From contig NZ_CP059467.1 in NCBI RefSeq assembly GCF_017894365.1, positions 806,001 through 870,000 on the forward strand: a stretch of DNA of 64,000 bases, written 5' to 3'. The stretch comes from Aromatoleum bremense (GTDB taxonomy: Bacteria; Pseudomonadota; Gammaproteobacteria; Burkholderiales; Rhodocyclaceae). Position 1 is the first letter of the stretch. Every line of letters begins with the position of its first letter. Under the pieces are notes generated by a model that saw only the letters and a program-made list of their open reading frames with translations, was not told the DNA's origin and did not search any database. Shown here in pieces: positions 53,051 to 63,955 of the stretch. The translations under genes were made by a program, and so were the position numbers.

Positions 53051-53536
53051 ATGCTTCGTACCCTCAACGACCTGTTTCGTTCGCTGTTCGATGCCCCTCC
53101 CCCCACCGATGAACCGGCCGGCCAGCACGCGCTGCAACTGGCGACCGCGGTGCTGCTCGTCGAGGTGATGCGCAGCGACGCGAAGATCGGCGCGCAGGAA
53201 CGGCGCACCGTGCTCGCGGCCCTGCGCGACAAGTTCGCCCTCGCCGACGACGAACTCGAGCGCCTGTTTGAACTGGCCGAAACACACGCCCGCGAAGCGA
53301 CCGATTTCCATCATTTCACCTCGAAGATCAACAAGGGTTTCAGCGCCGAACAAAAATTACGCATCGTCGAATTGCTGTGGCAGGTCGCGCTCGCCGACGG
53401 CCACATCAGTCATCACGAAAACCACCTGATGCGCAAGCTCGGCGACCTGCTCCACATTCCTCACGCCGCCTACGTCGCCGCGAAGCAGCGCGCCCGGCAG
53501 CACATGAACGTGCCCGACGCGCCAGCCGCTCCGTGA
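53051..53536 (+). CDS. TerB-like (tellurite-resistance-type) helical protein
   Basis: The product has 161 aa from the ATG at 53051. It carries a TerB fold: ALQLATAVLLVEVMRSDAKIGAQERRTV, then ADGHISHHENHLMRKLGDLLHIP near the C-terminus, with the acidic/His metal-binding type helices of TerB. Stand-alone TerB proteins like this are chromosomal and not evidence of tellurite resistance. The gene is GC-rich like the core genome and marks the left edge of the lower-GC island. Confidence 0.85.
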   Translation: MLRTLNDLFRSLFDAPPPTDEPAGQHALQLATAVLLVEVMRSDAKIGAQERRTVLAALRDKFALADDELERLFELAETHAREATDFHHFTSKINKGFSAEQKLRIVELLWQVALADGHISHHENHLMRKLGDLLHIPHAAYVAAKQRARQHMNVPDAPAAP

Positions 53537-54039
53537 TCGCACGGTGATCGCGCATCACGGCACCGCGACGAGGCATTACGCACCGCAATCGTCCGTCCTG
53601 CCGGGCTGCACCACCGCCGGGATTGCGCCGAATCGGGCGACGATCAGCGAGATTGGAAATCGGCGCCAACGCGTGTGCGCGATCGGTTTCCGTGAACGAT
53701 TGCTCCCGACCTGATGCAGATCTTCGTGCCGCGCCGGACTGAAGGGCAAGTGACGAAGTACAGCGACCGTTCGAGACACTGAATGGCGGCAGTGTTGCGG
53801 AAAGCCGCCGCACGGCGCTCAGCGCCGTCGAACGGCCGGTCCGCGGTTATCCAACTGGTGGTATCGACCCAGAAGAGACCTTCACCAACGTGGCTGTGAG
53901 CTTCTGGTTTTCCGCCTGAGCGGAAACTGGCGATCAGGCCCATCTTCGTCCGCAATCCATACGTCAGCTGCCGCACCTCCCACCCAAAGCGGCAGCGCCT
54001 CGATTTTTATGGAAGTTGTTGACCTGTAATTCCGATGGG
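53537..54039. other. Gap at left edge of the defence island
   Basis: About 500 bp with only short overlapping frames. The first 95 bp carry copy 2 of the dispersed repeat. From about 53640 the base composition falls toward that of the island. No transposase, integrase or tRNA was recognised. A short direct repeat marking an integration site was not found by eye. Confidence 0.5.
53559..53630. repeat. Dispersed intergenic repeat, copy 2
   Basis: It starts GGCACCGCGACGAGGC, continues through GCACCG and ends CACCGCCGGGATTGC. The copy at 50147-50230 has the same blocks in the same order with substitutions and a small gap. Confidence 0.55.
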
Positions 54040-56826
54040 TCAGCTGACCAACTCTTCGAGAGAACTGACGACTCGAAACCGTACTTCCTCGAAGTTCTTG
54101 AAATGGCGCTTGCCGCATTCGATGCGCAAATCCTCAATCGGCCGCAGCAGCCCGAGTTGCACATGGCCGGTGTTGCCGGTCTTCTTGGTTTCAGCCACGA
54201 AGTACAACACCTTGTCGTTCTTGTAGGCCACCGCCCAGTCGGGGTTGTACGGGCCGACGGGCGTTTCGATCTGAAACCAGCGCGGCAGCTTGATGTAGAA
54301 CAAAACGTCGTCGTTGTCCTCGCAGGCTTGAGCAAACAAGCGTTCGGGGCTGGAATTCGAGTCGATGACGATGTGCGAGAACAGCGTTTTATCCTGCTTG
54401 CCCACGGCACAGACATTGGACGCGAAAACCTCCATCAAGTCGTCAGCTTCAAACCGGCGCATTTCGTAGAAAGCATTTTCCAGCTTGAGGTATTTCACCC
54501 CGCTGCCTTCGGAATTGTCGCCGTAGACCAGAAACTCCCGCTTCTCGGCATTGACCAGTTCCGACACCTGATCCACAAACGCCTGCGGATTATTGACGGC
54601 ATCCGCCAATCGCCCGGAATCCAGCAGAATGCGCGCCACGGTGGACTTCGCCAGCCCTGTTTTGTTCTGCACTTGGCCGACAAAATCCGGCATCACGTAC
54701 TTTGCCTCCACCGTCTGTGTGCGGAAGCCCGTTTGCGTGCCGGATACGCCGGTTGCACCAATCGCAATTTCAGCGCGAGTCAGTGCCATCTTGGGGCGCT
54801 CGATGGCGGGCAACTTCGTTTTAACACGGCTCGCCGCCTTTGCGATCAACTCGCTTGTCTTGTATTCGACTCGGTAACGAGTGCGTGCCCGAATCCTTTC
54901 CCAAAGCTCCAAAAACTGGCTGTCCGTGTCGTAGCCTTTGCGCAGTCGCACGGTCACTTTGTTGCGTTCGTTTTGAACCATGTCGCGCTTGAACTTGACG
55001 CCGGCATCAAGCATTTCGGTCTGTAACTGGTTGGCGAAGTCCTCGTAGCTCTCGTTTGCAATCACGGTCAGGCGGTTGATCGCGCGGTCATTCACCCGCA
55101 CAAATTCATCGCCCACGCCTTTGACGCACAGACGCAAACCGCGCCCGATCTCCTGCCGTTTCTTGATTTCAGAGCTGCTTTCGGCGAGCGTGCAAATCTG
55201 GAATACGTTGGGGTTATCCCAACCCTCGCGCAGCGCGGAGTGACTGAAAATGAATGCCAGCGGTTCAGTTAGGTCCAGCAGGCGTTCCTTGTCGCGCATG
55301 ATGAGTTCGAAGGTGCTGGCTTCGGCATCGGCGTTAGTTTTTCCGGTCAGCGTCTCGAAAGGCGACACCGCCCGCTTGTCCTGAGAAAAATAGCCGTTGT
55401 GAACTTTCGCGCCATCATGTGGCATCAGGCCGATGTATTCGGCTTTGGCGCGGTACTGCTCATAGATTTCTTCAAACCATTCGCCGAACTTGCCCTTGGT
55501 CGCCGTGCCGTCCTCGGCGTAAGCACGATAGTTGACCACGCGGTCGATAAAAAACACCGACAGCACCTTGATTCCCATCGGGTGCAGTTTCTGTGCTTTC
55601 TCAAAGTGGCGGCGCACCGTTGCCTCGATCTGCAAACGCAGGATGGCATCCGTCAATGCGCCGTGCGGACTCCCGGCCCGCACCTTCACGTCGTTGGCAA
55701 AGGTGATGAAACCTTCCCCCGCGTCGATTTCATTGACGATGAAACCATCGCGATAAATCTCGCGCTGGTTTGAAAGCGCAAACAGGTCGTCGCCGTTCTT
55801 CACGCTCACGCTGGCTTTTTCTGGCCCGCTCGATTGGTTGCGCCAGATCGAGAGCTTGGCCTTGACGCTTCGCGCACCGGTCTTGAAGCTTTCCACTTCG
55901 ACAAAGGCTCGATTCGCATCCTTCAGCTCAATGACTGAATCCACACCAATCTGCTTGACCAGTCCCAATTCGTAGGCGCGTACCGGGTCCAGCGAATAAA
56001 TCAGGTTGTAGGCGTTTCGGTGGGTCGCTGAATAGCGCAACGTGCACATAGGGTTGAGCCGCGCGATTGCCTGCTTGCGAATGTCGGTTTCCAGATTCTG
56101 CGGCTCGTCCAAGATGACAATAGGGTGAGCTGACTGAATAAACTCGATGGGTTTGACCCCGGTTTCCCGTAACTGGTTGATGACGTTGCCTTTGCTCTTC
56201 TTGACCTTCTTAGCTTCAGCAGTAGTGCTCGGCTCTGTCGAATCCTTGGCAAAAGCATCGATGTTGATGACCAGGATCTGGATGGCATCGGACAGCGCAA
56301 AATTTCTCAGCTCGTTGACTTTTGCCGAGTCATAAACCTTGAACTCAACACGCTCATAATCGTATAGCGTCTTGAAGTGGTCCTGAGTGATTTGCAGGCT
56401 TTTCAGCACGCCCTCGCGGATCGCCACCGAGGGCACCACGATCACGAATTTCTTGAACCCGTAGGTCATCGATAATTCATGGATCGTGCGCAGATAAACG
56501 TAAGTCTTGCCGGTACCGGTTTCCATCTCGACCGTGAAGTTGGGGCAAGCACCAATCGAAGCGCCATCGTCCAGCATCATCGTTTCAAGTGCGGGCGACA
56601 GCGCAATGCCATGCGCGGTTTGTATGGCATGCAAGTTTTTCAGCCATTGCTCATCATCGATGACGCGCTGGTTTGCCACGCCTAACTCATTGAGCTGCAA
56701 ACTGGAAAGCTCGTCTTCCCGCGACACTGCCGCATGAGAGGAATCCGGCTGCCCGTCGAACAGCGCAACGACGGCACGTATGGCTTCGAGCTGATAGTCC
56801 TGATTCGCATCGAATTGCAGTTTCAC
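54040..56826 (-). CDS. res: Type III restriction enzyme Res subunit
   Basis: The product has 928 aa. I chose the GTG at 56826 because it overlaps the stop of the preceding gene as GTGA and the protein then begins KLQFDANQDYQLEAI, the usual N-terminus. The helicase part has Walker A METGTGKTYV, the DEAD-like box VILDEPQNLE, SATHRNAYN and the late motif QEIGRGLRL. The C-terminal nuclease has the PD-(D/E)xK pattern in NPDWAV...FVAETKKT. It appears intact. It cuts DNA with Mod when unmodified sites are present. It is the last gene of the six-gene operon. Confidence 0.95.
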   Translation of the reverse strand: MKLQFDANQDYQLEAIRAVVALFDGQPDSSHAAVSREDELSSLQLNELGVANQRVIDDEQWLKNLHAIQTAHGIALSPALETMMLDDGASIGACPNFTVEMETGTGKTYVYLRTIHELSMTYGFKKFVIVVPSVAIREGVLKSLQITQDHFKTLYDYERVEFKVYDSAKVNELRNFALSDAIQILVINIDAFAKDSTEPSTTAEAKKVKKSKGNVINQLRETGVKPIEFIQSAHPIVILDEPQNLETDIRKQAIARLNPMCTLRYSATHRNAYNLIYSLDPVRAYELGLVKQIGVDSVIELKDANRAFVEVESFKTGARSVKAKLSIWRNQSSGPEKASVSVKNGDDLFALSNQREIYRDGFIVNEIDAGEGFITFANDVKVRAGSPHGALTDAILRLQIEATVRRHFEKAQKLHPMGIKVLSVFFIDRVVNYRAYAEDGTATKGKFGEWFEEIYEQYRAKAEYIGLMPHDGAKVHNGYFSQDKRAVSPFETLTGKTNADAEASTFELIMRDKERLLDLTEPLAFIFSHSALREGWDNPNVFQICTLAESSSEIKKRQEIGRGLRLCVKGVGDEFVRVNDRAINRLTVIANESYEDFANQLQTEMLDAGVKFKRDMVQNERNKVTVRLRKGYDTDSQFLELWERIRARTRYRVEYKTSELIAKAASRVKTKLPAIERPKMALTRAEIAIGATGVSGTQTGFRTQTVEAKYVMPDFVGQVQNKTGLAKSTVARILLDSGRLADAVNNPQAFVDQVSELVNAEKREFLVYGDNSEGSGVKYLKLENAFYEMRRFEADDLMEVFASNVCAVGKQDKTLFSHIVIDSNSSPERLFAQACEDNDDVLFYIKLPRWFQIETPVGPYNPDWAVAYKNDKVLYFVAETKKTGNTGHVQLGLLRPIEDLRIECGKRHFKNFEEVRFRVVSSLEELVS

Positions 56827-57638
56827 AACCCATCCCCCATAATTCGATAGGGGTGTTGGCCGCGCTGACAACGCCCCCAGGAACTCAACAATAGTTTCGT
56901 GTGCCGCTCGATCCAAGAACGCATGTCATTATCCCAAGATGGTGGCCCTTCCATGCGCTCGAAACGATCAATCCGGTACTTAGCAAGCGTTTTAGGCCGT
57001 CCTGTGGGAGTTAGCCGTTGGGGATCAACCAGATGGACATGCGGGTACCCATGATCTAGCGGGTACATCTGTATAGGGTAGTTCGCCAATTCGCCGATTG
57101 TGTTCCCTTCGGTCAAACCTCTACCCCAATCAACCAAATTCTGCTGCCAACGGGTTGCATGGGCGCAATTGGCAACATGTTGGATTTCGCACGCTTGCTC
57201 GGCAATGTCTTCACCCTCCAAACGACATGCCGAAGCGGTAATCGAAGAAGAAAGCCAGTCGGAATTGGCTACCGGAAAACTAAAAGCCCAACTGCCAACA
57301 AGATGAGAAAAGCTCAAACCGACGGCCTTCTGGTTGTTGAAATAAACATCAGTATCTAGGCTATCCATGGGGCAAACATTGCGAAGTCTTGGCAACAACC
57401 GTTGATACTCAGTCCTTCCCAGCCATTCCCTTACCCAAGCAGAAAGGGGCTTGGCACCGCACAGCTCATGCCAATGACCTGTCGGCAACGCCATAGTTAC
57501 ATCGGGTTGATGTCGACTGACCTGCTGCAGACAAGCAAAGAGCTCCAGCGTCCATGTTTTCCAATCTGCTTCCAATTCTGGCGGCATCCCCCCAGGTGGC
57601 GCAGATAGTTCATTGAAGTACAGCACGAGCGATTTCAC
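56823..57638 (-). CDS. Unknown protein of the restriction operon cassette
   Basis: The product has 271 aa from a GTG at 57638 with GAGGTG 4 nt upstream. I do not recognise the family. It is soluble with no membrane segment or obvious repeats. Motif-like parts are GSWAFSFPVANSDWL, CEIQHVANCAHATRW, YPHVHLVDPQRLTPTGRPKT and a C-terminal HPYRIMGD. Its stop overlaps the Res start and it begins 8 bp after the ATPase gene, so the three products are made together. It may be the effector or partner of the ATPase in this cassette. Confidence 0.8.
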   Translation of the reverse strand: MKSLVLYFNELSAPPGGMPPELEADWKTWTLELFACLQQVSRHQPDVTMALPTGHWHELCGAKPLSAWVREWLGRTEYQRLLPRLRNVCPMDSLDTDVYFNNQKAVGLSFSHLVGSWAFSFPVANSDWLSSSITASACRLEGEDIAEQACEIQHVANCAHATRWQQNLVDWGRGLTEGNTIGELANYPIQMYPLDHGYPHVHLVDPQRLTPTGRPKTLAKYRIDRFERMEGPPSWDNDMRSWIERHTKLLLSSWGRCQRGQHPYRIMGDGL

Positions 57639-57646
57639 AGTGCACC

Positions 57647-58774
57647 TCAGTCCAGAAGCGCATCAAGGCTTTTTTCCCACTGATCGAAAAACCCATCCGG
57701 CCAGTTGGTTAGTTGCCCGTCGGGCAATACGGAAGGCAATTCCACATAACAATCCCCGCTGGACACATCTCGTGTGAAGTAGCACAGCCTCACATCATCG
57801 GCCTTCAATGCGCCTTTCTTGACAGCAAGGCGGATGCCATTCAATACATGGTCGCTATGGGTCTCAACCAAAATTTGTACGCCATCGGAAGCGCAAAGCC
57901 CCAGCAACTCGCCCATCTTTACTTGCCCCTGCGGGTGCAGATGGGCCTCAGGATTCTCGATTAGCAACAAGGAGCCGGCCGGTGCGGCCAGGCAGGCCAC
58001 CAGAATGGGCAGACTGTAGGTAAGGCCAAATCCAACATGGGTTGGCCGGTAAAAACGTGGCTCAAGACCGCGTGCCTGTCCGACATACTGGAATTGAAGG
58101 ATCACCTCGTCCGTGCCTTTCAGTAGCTCTGCCCGCAAGCGAGCACCGGGGCTGATCTGCTGCAACCAGCCGGCCACTTGGTCCAGCAATTGGGGCGTCG
58201 GCGCGATCTTGGCCCACATGGCGTCATCCAAGGCGCCGCACTCTTTCGTGCAACGACGTTTTTCCGAAACAGACTGATCTCTGTTGCTGGCAAGAAAATC
58301 TGCAGTGAACTCCCCATGACTACCTAACAGACCGTCTTGCCGCGCTTGCTGATCTGCTTGAGGATAGAGGGTTCGAGGAACAATGCGGTCCGCTTGCAGA
58401 TATTGAAAATGAGGGTTGACTGCAAAGCCATGAGGGGGCGATGGCGACTCGATGAACTTCAGTTGATTCGCTTCAGGTAGTGCTTCGCACACCCAGCAAT
58501 ACTCCGTGTCACCCTCCAGGACTGCCACCGTAATGGTCTCGTCTTTGGCGCCCTCACTCAGAACGTCCATTCCCTGACCGAGGGCGACGAGGGGGCCACC
58601 GAGCTGCATGCCATGACCTTGCCCGACCTGATAAGACTGGCGTATAGCCGCGAGGCTCTGCAAAACCGTGCTCTTGCCCGAGCCATTAAGGCCAGCCAGC
58701 ATCGTCAATGGTGCTAAAGGTAGATCCAGGCTTCGCGCTGCTTTGAAGTTGTACAGGTGAATACGATCAAGCAT
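57647..58774 (-). CDS. DUF3696 AAA-family ATPase
   Basis: The product has 375 aa from the ATG at 58774, overlapping the end of the DUF262 gene by 8 bp. SMC/ABC-like ATPase: Walker A LAGLNGSGKSTVLQSL, the Walker B region SLLLIENPEAHLHPQGQ, and the H-loop VETHSDHVLNGIR. The C-terminal LPDGQLTNWPDGFFDQWEKSL is the DUF3696 signature. Such OLD-like ATPases act as sensors or activators in several anti-phage systems. Its direct partner is probably the DUF262 protein upstream or the unknown protein downstream. Confidence 0.9.
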   Translation of the reverse strand: MLDRIHLYNFKAARSLDLPLAPLTMLAGLNGSGKSTVLQSLAAIRQSYQVGQGHGMQLGGPLVALGQGMDVLSEGAKDETITVAVLEGDTEYCWVCEALPEANQLKFIESPSPPHGFAVNPHFQYLQADRIVPRTLYPQADQQARQDGLLGSHGEFTADFLASNRDQSVSEKRRCTKECGALDDAMWAKIAPTPQLLDQVAGWLQQISPGARLRAELLKGTDEVILQFQYVGQARGLEPRFYRPTHVGFGLTYSLPILVACLAAPAGSLLLIENPEAHLHPQGQVKMGELLGLCASDGVQILVETHSDHVLNGIRLAVKKGALKADDVRLCYFTRDVSSGDCYVELPSVLPDGQLTNWPDGFFDQWEKSLDALLD

Positions 58775-59996
58775 GGAGCACCTCCTCAAAAATCGCGTTT
58801 ATCACCTCAAGCCGCTTGTTGGATGCCCAACCTTTGCCGGTCGCGTAAAGCAGAGCATTGGCAAAATCATTGTCGCCGGAAAACTTCTGGCCGAATTTTT
58901 CTATGACTTGATCCGAACGCTCCGCCAGGGCATTGATCTCAATATCAGGGCGCTGCGCAAGAGCGACGGCTTCGGTTTCAAATAGGCCGCGATTGATCGG
59001 GCGTCTTGCCTCATTGGGCTTAGAATATTTGCGGAAGGCCATCCGTCCAAAGACACGGGGCGCGCTCTTCATTGCACGGTCAAACGCCGCTTCCGTCTCC
59101 TGCCATTTTTGATCGTTCCATCCCACCGCGCGTTTATCAACAAACTCATTCAAAAACTCCTCCAGGTTCTCATCGGGATGTCGCTTCTCATCGCTAGGCA
59201 GGGAAAATAGAGCAGCAAAGCGAAGCACTAATTCGTGATCCTCTAGCCGTTCGCCTTTAATTTTTCCTTCGGTGGCGGAGAGAAAATCCTTGGTTATCGC
59301 CATGCGGCGAACGTGTTCACGCCACTTGCCGGCGGTATAGATGGCATTGCGGATTTCCTGAGCTTTAAGGGGTAGCCCGCCCTGGTTGATGCGGGAAAAA
59401 ATATTGAACTTGACATTGGCAGGAGTCCCGAAGCGGATGACATGCAAGGTCAACTCCGTTTCCATGATGCGCCGATGCAACGGACGAGGCAGGTCATCGA
59501 AAGCCTTGTGATCCAGCTCATTCTTCAGGGATTGCAGTCCTGTAAGTCGCAGGGGGGCGAGCTTAGTGTTTAACGCTTTGTTTAACCCACTGACTCGCAC
59601 GAAGTGGGCAATGGCACACAAGCGTTGCAGCCCATCGACCACTTCGTAGTTCCCATCCTTATCTTCAGAAACATAGAGGGATGGGATGGGAATACGTAAC
59701 AATATGGACTCGATCAGTCCGCTTTTTCGAGCCTCGCTCCATAGATTCGCCCGGCGCTGAAAGTCTGGGGAAAGATTAAGCTCGCCGTGCCCAAGACGCG
59801 CCATGAGTAAATCCACTGTTCGCTGGTGGGTGATGACGTCAATCAGCTTCGGGTCGAAGGGGGCGCGAATTTCCCCGGCATCATCCAATGGTTCTGCCTC
59901 CAAGCCACTGCCAGTGCTATCGGAAGTCAGTTCCTCCAGCGGCGCTGCCTCATCATTATTGGAGACTTCAATTTTTTCATCATTGTTTGACGTCAT
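58767..59996 (-). CDS. DUF262-domain protein (GmrSD/ParB-like nuclease fold)
   Basis: The product has 409 aa. After an acidic low-complexity N-terminus (about 1-45), the DUF262 domain has LSPDFQRRANLWSEARKSGLIESILLRI, the catalytic-type motif EVVDGLQRLCAI (DGLQR in place of the common DGQQR) and IFSRINQGGLPL. These proteins are the N-terminal half of GmrSD restriction enzymes and appear alone in other defence systems. No DUF1524 (HNH) domain follows, so any nuclease activity would be from DUF262 alone. It starts 9 bp after mod. Confidence 0.9.
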   Translation of the reverse strand: MTSNNDEKIEVSNNDEAAPLEELTSDSTGSGLEAEPLDDAGEIRAPFDPKLIDVITHQRTVDLLMARLGHGELNLSPDFQRRANLWSEARKSGLIESILLRIPIPSLYVSEDKDGNYEVVDGLQRLCAIAHFVRVSGLNKALNTKLAPLRLTGLQSLKNELDHKAFDDLPRPLHRRIMETELTLHVIRFGTPANVKFNIFSRINQGGLPLKAQEIRNAIYTAGKWREHVRRMAITKDFLSATEGKIKGERLEDHELVLRFAALFSLPSDEKRHPDENLEEFLNEFVDKRAVGWNDQKWQETEAAFDRAMKSAPRVFGRMAFRKYSKPNEARRPINRGLFETEAVALAQRPDIEINALAERSDQVIEKFGQKFSGDNDFANALLYATGKGWASNKRLEVINAIFEEVLHA

Positions 59997-60005
59997 TGCC
60001 CGCTC

Positions 60006-61886
60006 CTAAATGCAGGTGAACTTGATGCCGGCATCACGGCACTGCAAGTCGAGATTGCTCTTGAGTGGATCTGAATCGTGGAACACTCCGTCGATGGCAA
60101 TGATTTCGCGCGGCTTCATATCGACCAGCGGCTGGATCATGGCGTCGGAAAACGAATCAAGCACGAAAAGCATCTTGCGACTGTGAATGGCAAACACCTT
60201 GCCGCGCGCCACCTCCAGCGCCTCCACCGGCGTCGTCAGCTCCTGACCAAATTTCAGCAGCAGTTCATAGAACATGGCTTCGATCTCGGCGCCTTCTTTC
60301 TCGGTCTTGGCGAACAGTTTGATTTGCTCGGCCAGTTGTTCCGGCGTGTCGATGCCATCGCCGCGCCATTGTTTGAAGTTCGAGGGGGCGAGCACGAAGG
60401 ACTTGAAACCGAGGCTTTTTGTTTCGGTAGTCACAAGGTCGGCTGAGTTCTGTGTGCGCTGGATGACGCGCTTTATCCGTTCACGAGCAATATTGGCGAT
60501 CGTTCCGTATCCAGCCGTGGCCGCTGCGCTTCCAGCGGCAACTGGCTCAGGCAATTGCACAAGAATTGATCTGCGGACGATTCCATTTCGAGCGTTCAAG
60601 CGTGCTATTGCATCAAAACTGGACGCCGAACCCGCGAAGAAGTCCAAAAAAATGTCTTGGTCACCAAGTACCTGGTCGGCTAATCGCGCAATGAGCCCAG
60701 ACGGCTTTGGGAAGGAGAACACCTCGGCGCCGAAAGTTTCTCGCACCTCCTGAGTCCCATCGGCCGTATGGACGCCATCGATAATTGTGCGAAAAGATAT
60801 GAACTCCGACTGCATGTGTTTCCGAAACTTTTTTTCACGGGGACGGCCGTCGTCCTTCGCTGGGAAGAGGACGCATCCGTCTGCAATCAAGGCCTTCATT
60901 TTTTCCTCAGAGTACCTCCAACCAGTGGCGGGATTTGGAGGAAATACCCTACCGGTAATTGGCTCCACGATGTCGTAATGAAGATTGGGGCGTTGATCTC
61001 TGGTTGCTAGACCGAGCATGCTTCGGCTCATCCACGCGCCGCGAGAATCATTATCCGGATTGGAAAACTTCGATTCATCGCGCTCAATGCCTCGCAACGA
61101 AAATTCCGACGTACGAGAATAGCCAAGGATGTATTCGTGATCGGTCGAAACATTTGTTATCGCGCGGGCATCGGTAAACTGCCGCGCTTTCCAAACAAAT
61201 TCGGCGACGAAATTTTCTTCACCAAAAACCTCGTTCATTAAACACCGCAGGTTGTACACCTCATTGTCATCACATGACACGAAGATCACGCCATCCTCGC
61301 GCAACAGATTGCGCGCGATATACAGGCGGGGCAGCATCATCGACAGCCAGTTGCTGTGATAGTGGCCGCTCTCCTTGCCGTTCTTGCGGAAAAAGCCTTC
61401 TCGCATCAGGGTGCCATCATCGCTCAGGTCGTTGATGCGGCGCAGGTAATCTTCCTTGCTTTCCTGAAAGCGGTCGGGGTAAATGAAGCTGTCCGAGCCA
61501 GTGTTATAGGGCGGGTCGATATAAATCAGCTTGACCTTGCCGAAGTAGGCTTTCTGCAAGACTTTCAGCACTTCCAGGTTTTCGCCTTCGATGAACACAT
61601 GCTGCGCTTCATCGAAGTTGACCGAGATGCCACGCTGGGGTCGCAGCGTGGCGCGAGATGGCGTTTGCAATACCTTGTATGCGTTGGCCTTGCCTGCCCA
61701 GCTCAAGGCATAGCGTTCGCCGCCTTCGACCACCGCCTCGCTGCCGAGTGCGCGCTTGAGTGCAGATACATCAAGCTGGCCTTCTGAAAAGGCCTCCGGA
61801 ATCAAAGCCGCCAGTTGGGCGCGACGTTCCTCTGCGGGATCGGGCGACTGGGCAAGGCGGCTGGTGTCGGTCTTCGTGTCGGTCAT
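60006..61886 (-). CDS. mod: Type III DNA methyltransferase Mod subunit
   Basis: The product has 626 aa from the ATG at 61886, which overlaps the RHH stop by one base (TAATG). Beta-class N6-adenine methyltransferase: catalytic DPPYNTGSDSF comes before the SAM motif DIFLDFFAGSASSFDAI. The region between about 215 and 410 should contain the target recognition domain. It modifies one strand of an asymmetric site and guides Res. Separated from res by three unrelated genes, whereas mod and res are normally adjacent. Confidence 0.95.
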   Translation of the reverse strand: MTDTKTDTSRLAQSPDPAEERRAQLAALIPEAFSEGQLDVSALKRALGSEAVVEGGERYALSWAGKANAYKVLQTPSRATLRPQRGISVNFDEAQHVFIEGENLEVLKVLQKAYFGKVKLIYIDPPYNTGSDSFIYPDRFQESKEDYLRRINDLSDDGTLMREGFFRKNGKESGHYHSNWLSMMLPRLYIARNLLREDGVIFVSCDDNEVYNLRCLMNEVFGEENFVAEFVWKARQFTDARAITNVSTDHEYILGYSRTSEFSLRGIERDESKFSNPDNDSRGAWMSRSMLGLATRDQRPNLHYDIVEPITGRVFPPNPATGWRYSEEKMKALIADGCVLFPAKDDGRPREKKFRKHMQSEFISFRTIIDGVHTADGTQEVRETFGAEVFSFPKPSGLIARLADQVLGDQDIFLDFFAGSASSFDAIARLNARNGIVRRSILVQLPEPVAAGSAAATAGYGTIANIARERIKRVIQRTQNSADLVTTETKSLGFKSFVLAPSNFKQWRGDGIDTPEQLAEQIKLFAKTEKEGAEIEAMFYELLLKFGQELTTPVEALEVARGKVFAIHSRKMLFVLDSFSDAMIQPLVDMKPREIIAIDGVFHDSDPLKSNLDLQCRDAGIKFTCI

Positions 61887-62095
61887 TATTTTTTGCCTGC
61901 GGTAGTTTTTTGGCGGCCAGTCAACGGCTTGTTCAATTCTGAAATGGTGACGTTGTTCCGCCCGCAATACTCCCGAATCATCACTTCAACCATATTGGCG
62001 ATGCTGCGGTGTTCCTGCTCCGCGGCGGTGCGGAGAGCTTCTTTCAGGCCGGGTTCGATGCGAAAGCTCAGCGTGGCGGTCTTGGCGTTGGCCAT
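61886..62095 (-). CDS. Ribbon-helix-helix DNA-binding protein at head of the operon
   Basis: The product has 69 aa from the ATG at 62095 (GAGGA upstream). TATLSFRIEPGLKEALRTAAEQEHRSIANMVEVMIREYC is a classic Arc/CopG-type fold with the beta strand followed by two helices; the C-terminus is basic. It shares a TAATG junction with mod. RHH proteins of this kind are often repressors of their own operon. It could hold back Mod-Res expression, or be an orphan antitoxin with no toxin nearby. Confidence 0.85.
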   Translation of the reverse strand: MANAKTATLSFRIEPGLKEALRTAAEQEHRSIANMVEVMIREYCGRNNVTISELNKPLTGRQKTTAGKK

Positions 62096-62740
62096 TTTTT
62101 CCTCAAGGGCGCTTGTACTGCGGAAGTGTGGCAATGTACCGGAACGTCCGGCATAATCCAAACGAAATAGTCCACCTACCCAAGAGTGGGCAAGCATGCC
62201 CAGTCAGCAGGCGGGTTAGGGTCGAGCCGCCGGTGGCTCGCAACAACCGAATAGCACCCGCCCATTCTTGCCCGTTACTTCTGTTGTTTTCTGCCACGTA
62301 GTCGGCCGGTGCCGAAAATCTGACGCGATCATCTTCTGCCGGCGACAGCAAGCAGTTCTTTACCGGCCACTCAATGCTGGTGATGTTGCGGCAGCAATGG
62401 CCGATCAGGAGGCGAGGGTCTCGATGGCATCCCCGGCAGGTGACAGAGTTGAGCGGTCGTTCAGTTGACCGCTTCGGCCAGCAGGTCAACGGCTGTTGAT
62501 GGCCGTTATGGATAGCTGTTCAAGGCCGTAAACAGCCAGTCCGCCGCGATCGCCCTCGCGTTCTTTCCTGCATCACCTTACCGATCAAAAGGCCTTTCGC
62601 ACCCAGTGGAAAACTCTGCTGCTACTGGCTCCAAAAACCAAGGAAACCAATAGCATCAGCAAAATCAACACCGTCCGACGGACTCGCACCTCCATCCGGT
62701 GACGCCAGCCTCGCCCGGGCGAAAGTGCAGAAAGCGCGAT
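62096..62740. other. Intergenic region at right edge of the defence island
   Basis: About 645 bp without a supported gene. It must carry the promoter of the RHH-mod operon near 62100-62160. The part 62200-62560 has the low-complexity, hairpin-rich look of dispersed intergenic remnants seen next to islands, with two clear hairpins (62452-62473 and 62488-62507). Frames found here are Arg/Ser-rich and unconvincing. Confidence 0.5.
62452..62507. repeat. Two adjacent hairpins in the right island flank
   Basis: AGCGGTC/GACCGCT (8-nt loop) is followed 14 bp later by AACGGC/GCCGTT (8-nt loop). The similar shape and spacing suggest a repeat element rather than a terminator, since no T run follows. 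Confidence 0.5.
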
Positions 62741-63955
62741 TCACGGCCGGGTGAATGCCTGGCTGAAATCGGCCTTGAGGTCTTCCAGGTGCTCGAGGCC
62801 GATCGATAGCCGGACGAAGTTCGGGGCGATGCCGGCGGCTTTCATCTGCGCTTCGTTCATCGTGCCGGACCACATCGCGGCGGTGTGCACGACCAGCGAC
62901 TCGACGCCGCCGAGGCTCACGCCGTGAGTCGCGAGTTCGAGCGCGGCGACGAACTGGCGGGTCGCGTCGAATCCGCCCTTGACTGCGAATGCGATGACGG
63001 CGCCGTAGCCTTTCATCTGCTTTTTTGCCAGCGCGTGCTGCGGATGGCTCTCGAGGCCGGGGTAGAACACTTGCTCGACCTGCGGCTGCGCTTCGAGCCA
63101 GCCGGCAAACGCGAGCGCCGTCGCGTTGATCCGCTCCATGCGCACGGGCAAGGTCCGCAGGCCGCGCAGCAGCAGCCACGCGTCCATCGGCGACAGCACC
63201 GCGCCGAGCGTGACGTGCATGCGCCAGATGCGCTCGGCGAGCACCTCCGAGCAGCACACGACGCCGGCCATCAGGTCGTGGTGCCCGCCAAGATACTTGG
63301 TCGCGCTGTGCACGACGATGTCGATGCCCAGTGCGTGCGGCTTCTGGTTCAGCGGCGAAGCGAAGGTGTTGTCGGCGACGGTGAGGATGCCGCGGCTGCG
63401 TCCGAGGGCGGCGACGGCTTCGAGGTCCGTCAGCACCAGCGTCGGGTTCGCCGGCGTTTCGAACATCATCAGGCGCGTGTTCGGCCGGATCGCGGCTTCG
63501 ATCGCCGCGAGATCGCTCTGCTCGACGAACGTGACGCTGACGCCGAACTTCGGCAGCACTTCGTCGAACAGCTTCGCGGTGCTCATGTAGTGGCGCTGCT
63601 GCGCGATCACGTGGTCGCCGGCCGCGACCAGCGCCAGCACCGTCGTGCTGATCGCCCCCATGCCCGAGGCGGTCAGCAGTGCGGACTCGGTGCCTTCGAG
63701 CTCGGCCAGGATGGCCTCGACGCGCTGGTGCGTCGGGTTGCCGTAGCGCGTGTAGAAGCCGGGGTGGCGCGGTGTGTTCGCGCGCTCGGCGAAGTCATGG
63801 GCGTCGGACGCCCTGAAGGTGGCGGTGTAGTAGATCGGCGCGACGATCGCGGCATCGTCGGAGAGATGCGCATCGCCGTGCAGCACGCGCGTCTCGTCGT
63901 GCCACGCGGGATTGGCGGAATCATTCGCTCTGGTCGGTGTGTTTGCCATGTCCAT
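62741..63955 (-). CDS. Trans-sulfuration PLP enzyme (O-succinylhomoserine sulfhydrylase / cystathionine gamma-synthase)
   Basis: The product has 404 aa, Cys/Met-metabolism PLP family. YYTATFRASDAHDF and FYTRYGNPTHQRVEAILAELEG form the N-terminal region; the PLP lysine is in VVHSATKYLGGHHDLMAG; SLGGVESLVVHTA and FVRLSIGLEHLEDLKADF are at the C-terminus. It makes homocysteine or cystathionine from an activated homoserine and a sulfur donor, or acts as a lyase. Which of these cannot be settled by eye. The promoter region is cut by the window end. Confidence 0.88.
   Translation of the reverse strand: MDMANTPTRANDSANPAWHDETRVLHGDAHLSDDAAIVAPIYYTATFRASDAHDFAERANTPRHPGFYTRYGNPTHQRVEAILAELEGTESALLTASGMGAISTTVLALVAAGDHVIAQQRHYMSTAKLFDEVLPKFGVSVTFVEQSDLAAIEAAIRPNTRLMMFETPANPTLVLTDLEAVAALGRSRGILTVADNTFASPLNQKPHALGIDIVVHSATKYLGGHHDLMAGVVCCSEVLAERIWRMHVTLGAVLSPMDAWLLLRGLRTLPVRMERINATALAFAGWLEAQPQVEQVFYPGLESHPQHALAKKQMKGYGAVIAFAVKGGFDATRQFVAALELATHGVSLGGVESLVVHTAAMWSGTMNEAQMKAAGIAPNFVRLSIGLEHLEDLKADFSQAFTRP

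Follow-up and report, generated by a model that had tools for sequence, protein, structure and literature searches.

A Menshen cassette inside a type III restriction-modification operon of Aromatoleum bremense points to a probable exchangeable cargo position between mod and res

The stretch of Aromatoleum bremense DNA analysed here, hereafter the window (64,000 nucleotides (nt); assembly GCF_017894365.1, contig NZ_CP059467.1, positions 806,001 to 870,000), carries on its minus strand, from 62095 to 54040, six intact genes in which every frame is open: a small RHH gene, mod, nsnA, nsnB, nsnC and res. They combine a type III restriction-modification (RM) operon, with both mod and res recognised by Pfam and PADLOC, and a three-gene cassette that, judged by its profile matches, is the known system Menshen. 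The first gene (61886..62095) encodes a protein of 69 amino acids (aa), a probable regulator or antitoxin-like protein whose weak matches to RHH_5 (1.5e-4) and RHH_1 (0.0016) are both below the Pfam cut-off. It overlaps by 1 nt (TAATG) the mod gene (60006..61886), which codes for a type III N6-adenine methyltransferase of 626 aa (N6_N4_Mtase, 2.1e-24; PADLOC MTase_III, 5.5e-166). A gap of 9 nt (59997..60005) separates the mod stop from the ATG of nsnA (58767..59996), coding for a DUF262 (GmrS-like) protein of 409 aa (PADLOC NsnA, 1.3e-112; GmrSD_N/DUF262, 3.9e-22), which shares the 8-nt overlap ATGCTTGA with nsnB (57647..58774), coding for a RecF/OLD/SMC-like ATPase of 375 aa with a C-terminal DUF3696 (PADLOC NsnB, 2e-108; AAA_21, 6.1e-19; DUF3696, 2.4e-12). 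After a gap of 8 nt, nsnC (56823..57638) starts with GTG and encodes 271 aa, with an N-terminal NsnC part (PADLOC NsnC, 1.5e-10) and a C-terminal DUF4160-like part (motif MYPLDHGYPHVHL). Its stop overlaps by 4 nt, GTGA (56823..56826), the start of res (54040..56826), coding for an SF2 helicase with a C-terminal endonuclease domain (928 aa; RE_endonuc, 8.7e-32; ResIII, 1.3e-11; PADLOC REase_III, 3.3e-261).

All junctions within this run are thus overlaps or gaps of at most 9 nt, and coordinates and junctions confirm the arrangement described in an earlier note on this DNA, namely three genes between mod and res, joined by less than 10 bp. Pfam likewise supports its domain assignments for the DUF262 protein, the DUF3696 ATPase, mod and res; DPPY and Walker A motifs are visible by eye in the type III mod/res sequences. 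As a separate module between modification and restriction genes, on the same strand and with tight junctions, the cassette qualifies as an RM-embedded defence. The six genes have a G+C content of 52-56%, versus 67% in the flanks. The same note took them for one translated unit, which stands as far as the tight spacing and probable co-expression go, whereas the single transcript is what we infer from that spacing. A promoter scan gave two promoter-like sites where shuffled sequence averages 4.6; both are on the plus strand, which leaves the operon strand with none. Terminator-like sites numbered 18, versus 11.1 in shuffled sequence, an uninformative difference.

The PADLOC models cover residues 21-407 of the 409 of NsnA, 1-374 of the 375 of NsnB and 4-168 of NsnC, and the genes follow each other contiguously in the Menshen order A-B-C, which bears out the hint at Menshen in the earlier note. 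The third protein, listed there as unknown, indeed has no Pfam or NCBIfam match, but PADLOC recognises it as NsnC. The Nsn names denote the genes of Menshen. NsnA contains the motif VDGLQR (residues 120-125), invariant across 35 aligned sequences. Two other candidates were rejected: DUF1524/GmrSD_C has no match in any of the three cassette proteins, nor has TOPRIM in NsnB or NsnC, and the cassette is therefore neither a type IV GmrSD system (DUF262 plus DUF1524), a family with which comparison had been proposed, nor PARIS/OLD. The AriA and Old models do match the ATPase parts of NsnB, with the NsnA/B/C models scoring far better. Among solved structures, the NsnA and NsnC profiles found no sequence match; for NsnB, roughly the first 44 residues matched PtuA, an AAA family ATPase and an OLD-family endonuclease.

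The position between mod and res resembles a slot when relatives of the operon are compared (L followed by a number denotes a compared stretch). In a genome of the same family (L176), whose res is 80.9% identical to that of the window and whose mod is 58% identical, the site is empty: the mod stop is followed by 9 nt and the ATG of res. At exactly the same distance from the mod stop, the window has the ATG of nsnA, and its res starts instead with the GTG overlapping the nsnC stop. In L179, with a res 71.7% identical, the slot is occupied by an ATPase and a DUF4276 protein that correspond to HEC-01A (1.9e-173) and HEC-01B (4.7e-64), and this unrelated cargo likewise ends in GTGA at the res start. 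Compared with L176 and L179, residues ~225-475 of mod, likely the target-recognition region, show ~12-50% identity per 50-residue windows, while the ends retain ~50-100%. With the middle of mod diverged and its ends kept, both specificity and cargo therefore vary in this lineage.

Of the related mod-res pairs, 23 could be counted: in 14 the two genes are separated by one or more open reading frames (ORFs) of at least 80 aa and in nine by none, so that mod and res, which the earlier note held to be normally adjacent, are so only in part of the sample. Because the sample is not random, having been shaped by search thresholds and hand-picked plasmids (nine plasmid records from 37 mod and 120 res matches), the 14 of 23 is a description and not a rate. 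The count leaves aside four stretches in which res was out of reach (L200, L204, L208 and L210), one with mod in fragments (L206), one whose mod is broken (L178) and L184, which is the same plasmid as L177; L180 (168 nt between the genes) and L212 (216 nt), without an 80-aa ORF, were counted as empty. In L211, res matched only in part. PADLOC was run on the cargo of six slots (L175, L179, L182, L183, L185 and L189), and in all except L175 this cargo matched a defence model, either strongly or as a DUF262/restriction relative. HEC-01AB occurs twice, in L179 and in an Aeromonas plasmid (L189); HEC-05 was found in a Planctomycetes plasmid (L183), PDC-S02 in a Chryseobacterium plasmid (L182), and a lone DUF262 protein in Rhizobium (L185). 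RhuM fills the slot of L186. The cargo of L175 has no clear PADLOC match and carries the Pfam domain SLFN_AlbA_2. Within this sample, Menshen was the cargo only in the window.

Two side observations concern these same loci. AlbA/Schlafen-like or similar-looking proteins of ~555 aa lie between mod and res in L175 (5883-7547), L203 (2366-4033), L211 and L213, as determined by domain scan in L175 and from the first residues in the other three. In L186, a Thiodictyon plasmid, a DUF1778 and GNAT pair (886-1661) precedes mod, where the window has its lone RHH gene.

Beyond the window, 158 stretches of genome contigs encode an NsnA relative. In the best 80, which were kept, NsnB follows NsnA in 79 and the NsnC profile matches in 47. 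A phmmer search with the proteins of the window and of a second copy in the same genome (see below) found a mod or res match in the fetched flanks of 0 of the 80 loci, some of which reach contig ends and in which other RM families may escape such queries; the idea that Menshen always accompanies RM is thereby ruled out. Other RM genes do enclose it. Three Bacteroidota loci (L076, L080 and L081) have the order hsdM-hsdS-nsnA-nsnB-nsnC-hsdR, the cassette being separated from each of its neighbours by 2-11 nt (hsdR is split over two ORFs in L076), and in L063 the cassette lies between a DUF3780 gene (155 bits, below the cut-off of 200) and a DUF1156 gene (1346 bits). In L017, other ORFs separate the cassette from hsdM-hsdS, ~1.5 kb upstream, and from hsdR, ~4 kb downstream. 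Surveys of the class and the order added hsdM-hsdS-NsnABC-hsdR in L131, with 252 nt between hsdS and nsnA; an SNF2 helicase, an N6_N4 methyltransferase and a 284-aa protein before NsnABC and a ResIII protein after it in L133; and weak HsdM and HsdS fragments (2e-4 and 1e-4) before the cassette in L134, at a contig start. The remaining 11 of these 14 stretches, some cut by contig ends, showed no RM neighbour by the queries used. The neighbourhood search suggested in the earlier note has thus found the cassette in RM operons of several types and also free-standing.

The class survey matched 19 of 369 genomes; eight stretches from seven non-own genomes with at least 300 bits were taken, and 11 genomes below 220 bits, which look putatively PD-T4-2-like, were left. 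The order survey matched nine of 399 genomes, and six of nine non-own places were taken. Across the phylum, a close NsnA profile at E 1e-100 found two of 398 genomes, one of them our own; among relatives, NsnB matched at E 1e-3 in 14 of 61, with only the two copies of the own genome clearly NsnB by score. When co-directional neighbours within 400 nt were scanned (51 upstream and 37 downstream), Methylase_S was the commonest of the 25 families listed upstream (5/51; the next highest family reached 2), and the 25 listed downstream include HSDR_N (4/37) and DEAD (6/37); the 37 come from 39 stretches, L137 and L152, without NsnB, being omitted and L132 and L150 lying at contig ends.

On plasmids, NsnA matched 18 of 72,556 records, and all 11 inspected copies are DUF262-DUF3696-hypothetical with no adjacent annotated RM gene in the PLSDB tables, which are incomplete. 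Since these 11 and the nearest readable relatives of the window copy stand alone, the Menshen cassette is, by its distribution, a self-contained module. Some plasmid copies have other neighbours: a DUF1837-helicase pair, which we take to be Hachiman-like, lies just upstream of the cassette on a Paracoccus plasmid (L157, 1900-9149), brxL lies ~2 kb from Menshen on an Acinetobacter plasmid, and a Cupriavidus plasmid carries a free-standing Menshen (L161, 5962-9187) ~4 kb from an empty-slot SNF2-mod-res (L187, 44-7991).

The A. bremense genome itself contains a second Menshen at C1:4013004-4017595 (stretch L108, 8613-12138, within ~4.014-4.018 Mb). The genes there are, in order, a res-like gene (ResIII, 4.2e-8), SoFic (6.2e-120), a type III mod (PDLC03632, 1437 bits), NsnA interrupted by an IS66 element, NsnB and NsnC (PDLC03896, 1.7e-117), so that this copy lies directly behind a type III mod with no res on its other flank. 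In a tree of 88 NsnB sequences the window groups with L005 and L004, and the other nested copies fall elsewhere. Nine nested rows (window, L108, L131, L133, L134, L063, L076, L080 and L081) require seven changes on this tree, and approximately unbiased (AU) tests reject a single clade of L131, L076, L080 and L081 (p 1.2e-5) as well as one of the window and the second copy (p 2.5e-5). These tests rule out that nesting arose only once. Fic proteins recur next to RM or Menshen operons (L108, L134 and L179): SoFic lies between res and mod at L108 15026-16135, a Fic protein directly behind NsnC at L134 4403-5530, and a weaker Fic-like ORF (41 bits) directly before mod at L179 1102-2226. A third type III mod-like match of the own genome, at C1:1407829-1408974 (L109), is a 581-aa open frame.

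NsnC appears to be built of a common and a variable part. The set of homologues was assembled from 94 candidates, of which 77 passed a length filter; the window and L108 proteins were added, L018, L020, L026, L032, L046 and L059 were excluded as not NsnC or uncertain, and 73 were scanned. In an alignment of 31 sequences the N-terminal NELS region is kept and is followed by the C-terminal MYPLDHGYPHVHL...KYR region, while across the 73, from many loci, N9 and S12 are present in 66 of 72 filled rows and the C-termini differ. At E 0.01, Pfam finds YoeB_toxin in six, Gp49 in four and DUF4160 in two of them, members that may overlap; precomputed PF13711 (DUF4160) annotations exist for 14 of 43 NsnC homologues found. 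L080, nested in a type I operon, combines the NsnC model (residues 1-186) with YoeB_toxin (residues 204-286). YoeB and Gp49 are RelE-like toxins. Because the N-terminal pattern is common, the C-termini differ and some match YoeB or Gp49, NsnC may be an adaptor whose effector end is exchangeable. The title of a 2025 Menshen paper (Li et al.; PMC12065111) speaks of 'domain polymorphism', which suggests that the exchangeable end is already in print.

The operon lies in a strain-variable chromosomal island (53755..62523, bounds from alignment to L196). The flanks align to four same-genus genomes and the middle does not, the island being absent or replaced there; the interval appears as a hot spot, with different content in each of the four. 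Between the flanks, L198 has ~0.56 kb, L196 3.2 kb of other DNA, L199 ~2.8 kb in a rearranged region, and L197 6.5 kb with PDC-M26A (980 bits) and a PDDEXK_7 protein. The right-hand flank gene was found at E 1e-120 in five of 17 same-genus genomes, own included, and the window mod at E 1e-80 in 0 of the 16 others. A search for direct repeats of at least 14 nt as target-site marks found none within 53500-54100 or 61800-62760; from 53400 to 62800 there are 27 direct-repeat families, none obviously joining both ends.

What was observed, namely the identity of the cassette, its exact junctions, one relative whose slot is empty and one whose slot is filled differently, and Menshen nested repeatedly and independently in RM operons, leads us to consider it likely that the interval between mod and res of this type III RM operon is a slot for exchangeable cargo, filled here by Menshen as a co-expressed second layer of defence, probably an abortive one. 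Cargo would be exchanged by homologous recombination within the conserved end sequences, 3' in mod and 5' in res. On a common transcript driven by the RM promoter, the cassette would follow mod and precede res, with translation of res coupled to the end of nsnC. NsnB (the ATPase) and NsnA (a DUF262 NTPase) might sense infection or foreign or modified DNA and license NsnC. The latter would be a conserved adaptor that halts the infected cell through a toxin-like, exchangeable C-terminus, which resembles YoeB or Gp49 in some relatives and DUF4160 in the window. RM and Menshen would thus be complementary layers that share regulation and travel together, rather than one enzyme, a view that we favour because of the DUF262, TgvAB and RptR precedents in print. 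More tentatively, RM operons of types I and III might generally have a dedicated slot after the modification or specificity gene, which independent defence modules, Menshen included, repeatedly enter and leave by homologous exchange with start and stop codons in register and with translation of the nuclease coupled to the cargo end, RM providing promoter, timer and addiction module for a second layer that may fire when restriction fails.

Several points weigh against this interpretation. Tight nesting was seen in only four of the 80 best loci (L063, L076, L080 and L081), none of them type III, and in L005 and L004, the nearest readable kin, no RM gene was detected. Closer NsnA proteins (79-85%) come from metagenomes and were seen without gene context, and exact placement in the NsnB tree is unsure because several branches are long. 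The recombination route is read from identity patterns. Most of the 73 NsnC, that of the window included, have no Pfam match, so that the toxin role leans on relatives, and we know of no activity for DUF4160.

The tight translational spacing, GTGA included, and the repeated and independent appearance of nesting in several kinds of RM operon would also fit a Menshen coupled to the type III enzyme itself. It would then fire when a phage inhibitor blocks restriction or when foreign DNA is cut by Res, much as EcoprrI is guarded by PrrC. PrrC does lie inside a type IC locus (PMC12707154), and embedded TgvAB alone was 10- to 100-fold less protective against several phages than its whole RM cluster (PMC11411939). 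In that cluster, however, HsdR inactivation left TgvAB protection unchanged, and the authors propose protein stoichiometry as the reason for the difference (PMC11411939). The rarity of tight nesting, the nearest kin and 11 inspected plasmid copies without an adjacent RM partner, and the unrelated cargo at the same mod|res position of relatives all speak against such coupling, which was in essence the composite system proposed in the earlier note and which we now regard as unlikely.

At the opposite extreme, the arrival of the cassette in an RM operon within a variable island could be pure chance, its place being functionally meaningless. Menshen-like cassettes do occur on plasmids, and the island is strain-variable and of lower G+C; indeed, the earlier note's caveat of a known system that merely landed here largely holds as regards the system. 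Yet the landing place is itself recurrent: every start and stop is kept at exact junctions, nesting recurs independently at hsdS|hsdR and near mod, and five of the six PADLOC-scanned slots (not L175) hold defence-type cargo, all of which makes neutral hitch-hiking rather improbable. A modification-dependent restriction module of the GmrSD type, like RloF or TgvAB, would share DUF262 with its VDGLQR motif and a comparable location, the place of RloF being between hsdS and hsdR and that of TgvAB being described as similar; the missing DUF1524/HNH match in the three proteins, which PADLOC assigns to NsnA/B/C, makes this very hard to sustain.

If the slot between mod and res is real, defences embedded in RM operons can be understood as occupants of a single exchangeable position, and new ones can be sought in the sequence preceding res or hsdR. 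Related mod-res pairs in three states, empty, Menshen-filled and HEC-01-filled, provide a clean comparison set for co-regulation, synergy or co-inheritance. The YoeB-like toxin end on the NsnC of a nested locus gives a hint of how Menshen may kill.

In the literature searched, which did not include the main Menshen and embedding papers, neither Menshen as RM cargo nor the mod|res junction as a slot was found: no paper combined DUF3696 with restriction-modification, nothing relevant on genes between mod and res emerged, judged by titles, and the available parts of PMC10952713, PMC13268207, PMC12839542 and PMC10855318 do not describe Menshen nesting. Menshen itself is known, as is defence embedded in RM operons, both from type I examples and as a route to discovery. 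Menshen (NsnA-NsnB-NsnC) was reportedly described by Millman et al. in 2022, and Payne et al. (2024) are said to have used guilt-by-embedding to obtain Hma-embedded candidates (HEC) and PDCs. The same principle applies here, with HEC-01, HEC-05 and PDC-S02 filling the mod|res slot of the window's relatives. In Menshen, the DUF262 gene is required for phage resistance and its partner is a predicted OLD nuclease, and in GmrSD, BrxU and SspE the DUF262 part binds or hydrolyses NTPs, linked to nuclease activity (PMC10952713). The window has the same three families in the same order and differs in its type III RM location, the DUF4160-like C-terminus of NsnC and an NsnB without TOPRIM match. RloF and DarTG2 are located between hsdS and hsdR, with TgvAB similarly placed (PMC4619093, PMC11411939, PMC12255303), and PrrC is within its type IC locus (PMC12707154); they are alike in being defence genes inside an RM operon, but their hosts are type I and their cargo is other, whereas the window has a type III host and Menshen. 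The E. coli RM-DarTG2 island controlled by RptR shows that a small gene at the head of such an operon can act as its repressor (PMC12255303). That island and the window share a small gene first, then modification genes, then embedded cargo (there at hsdS|hsdR), the difference being that the first gene of the window is a weak RHH match, a putative regulator.

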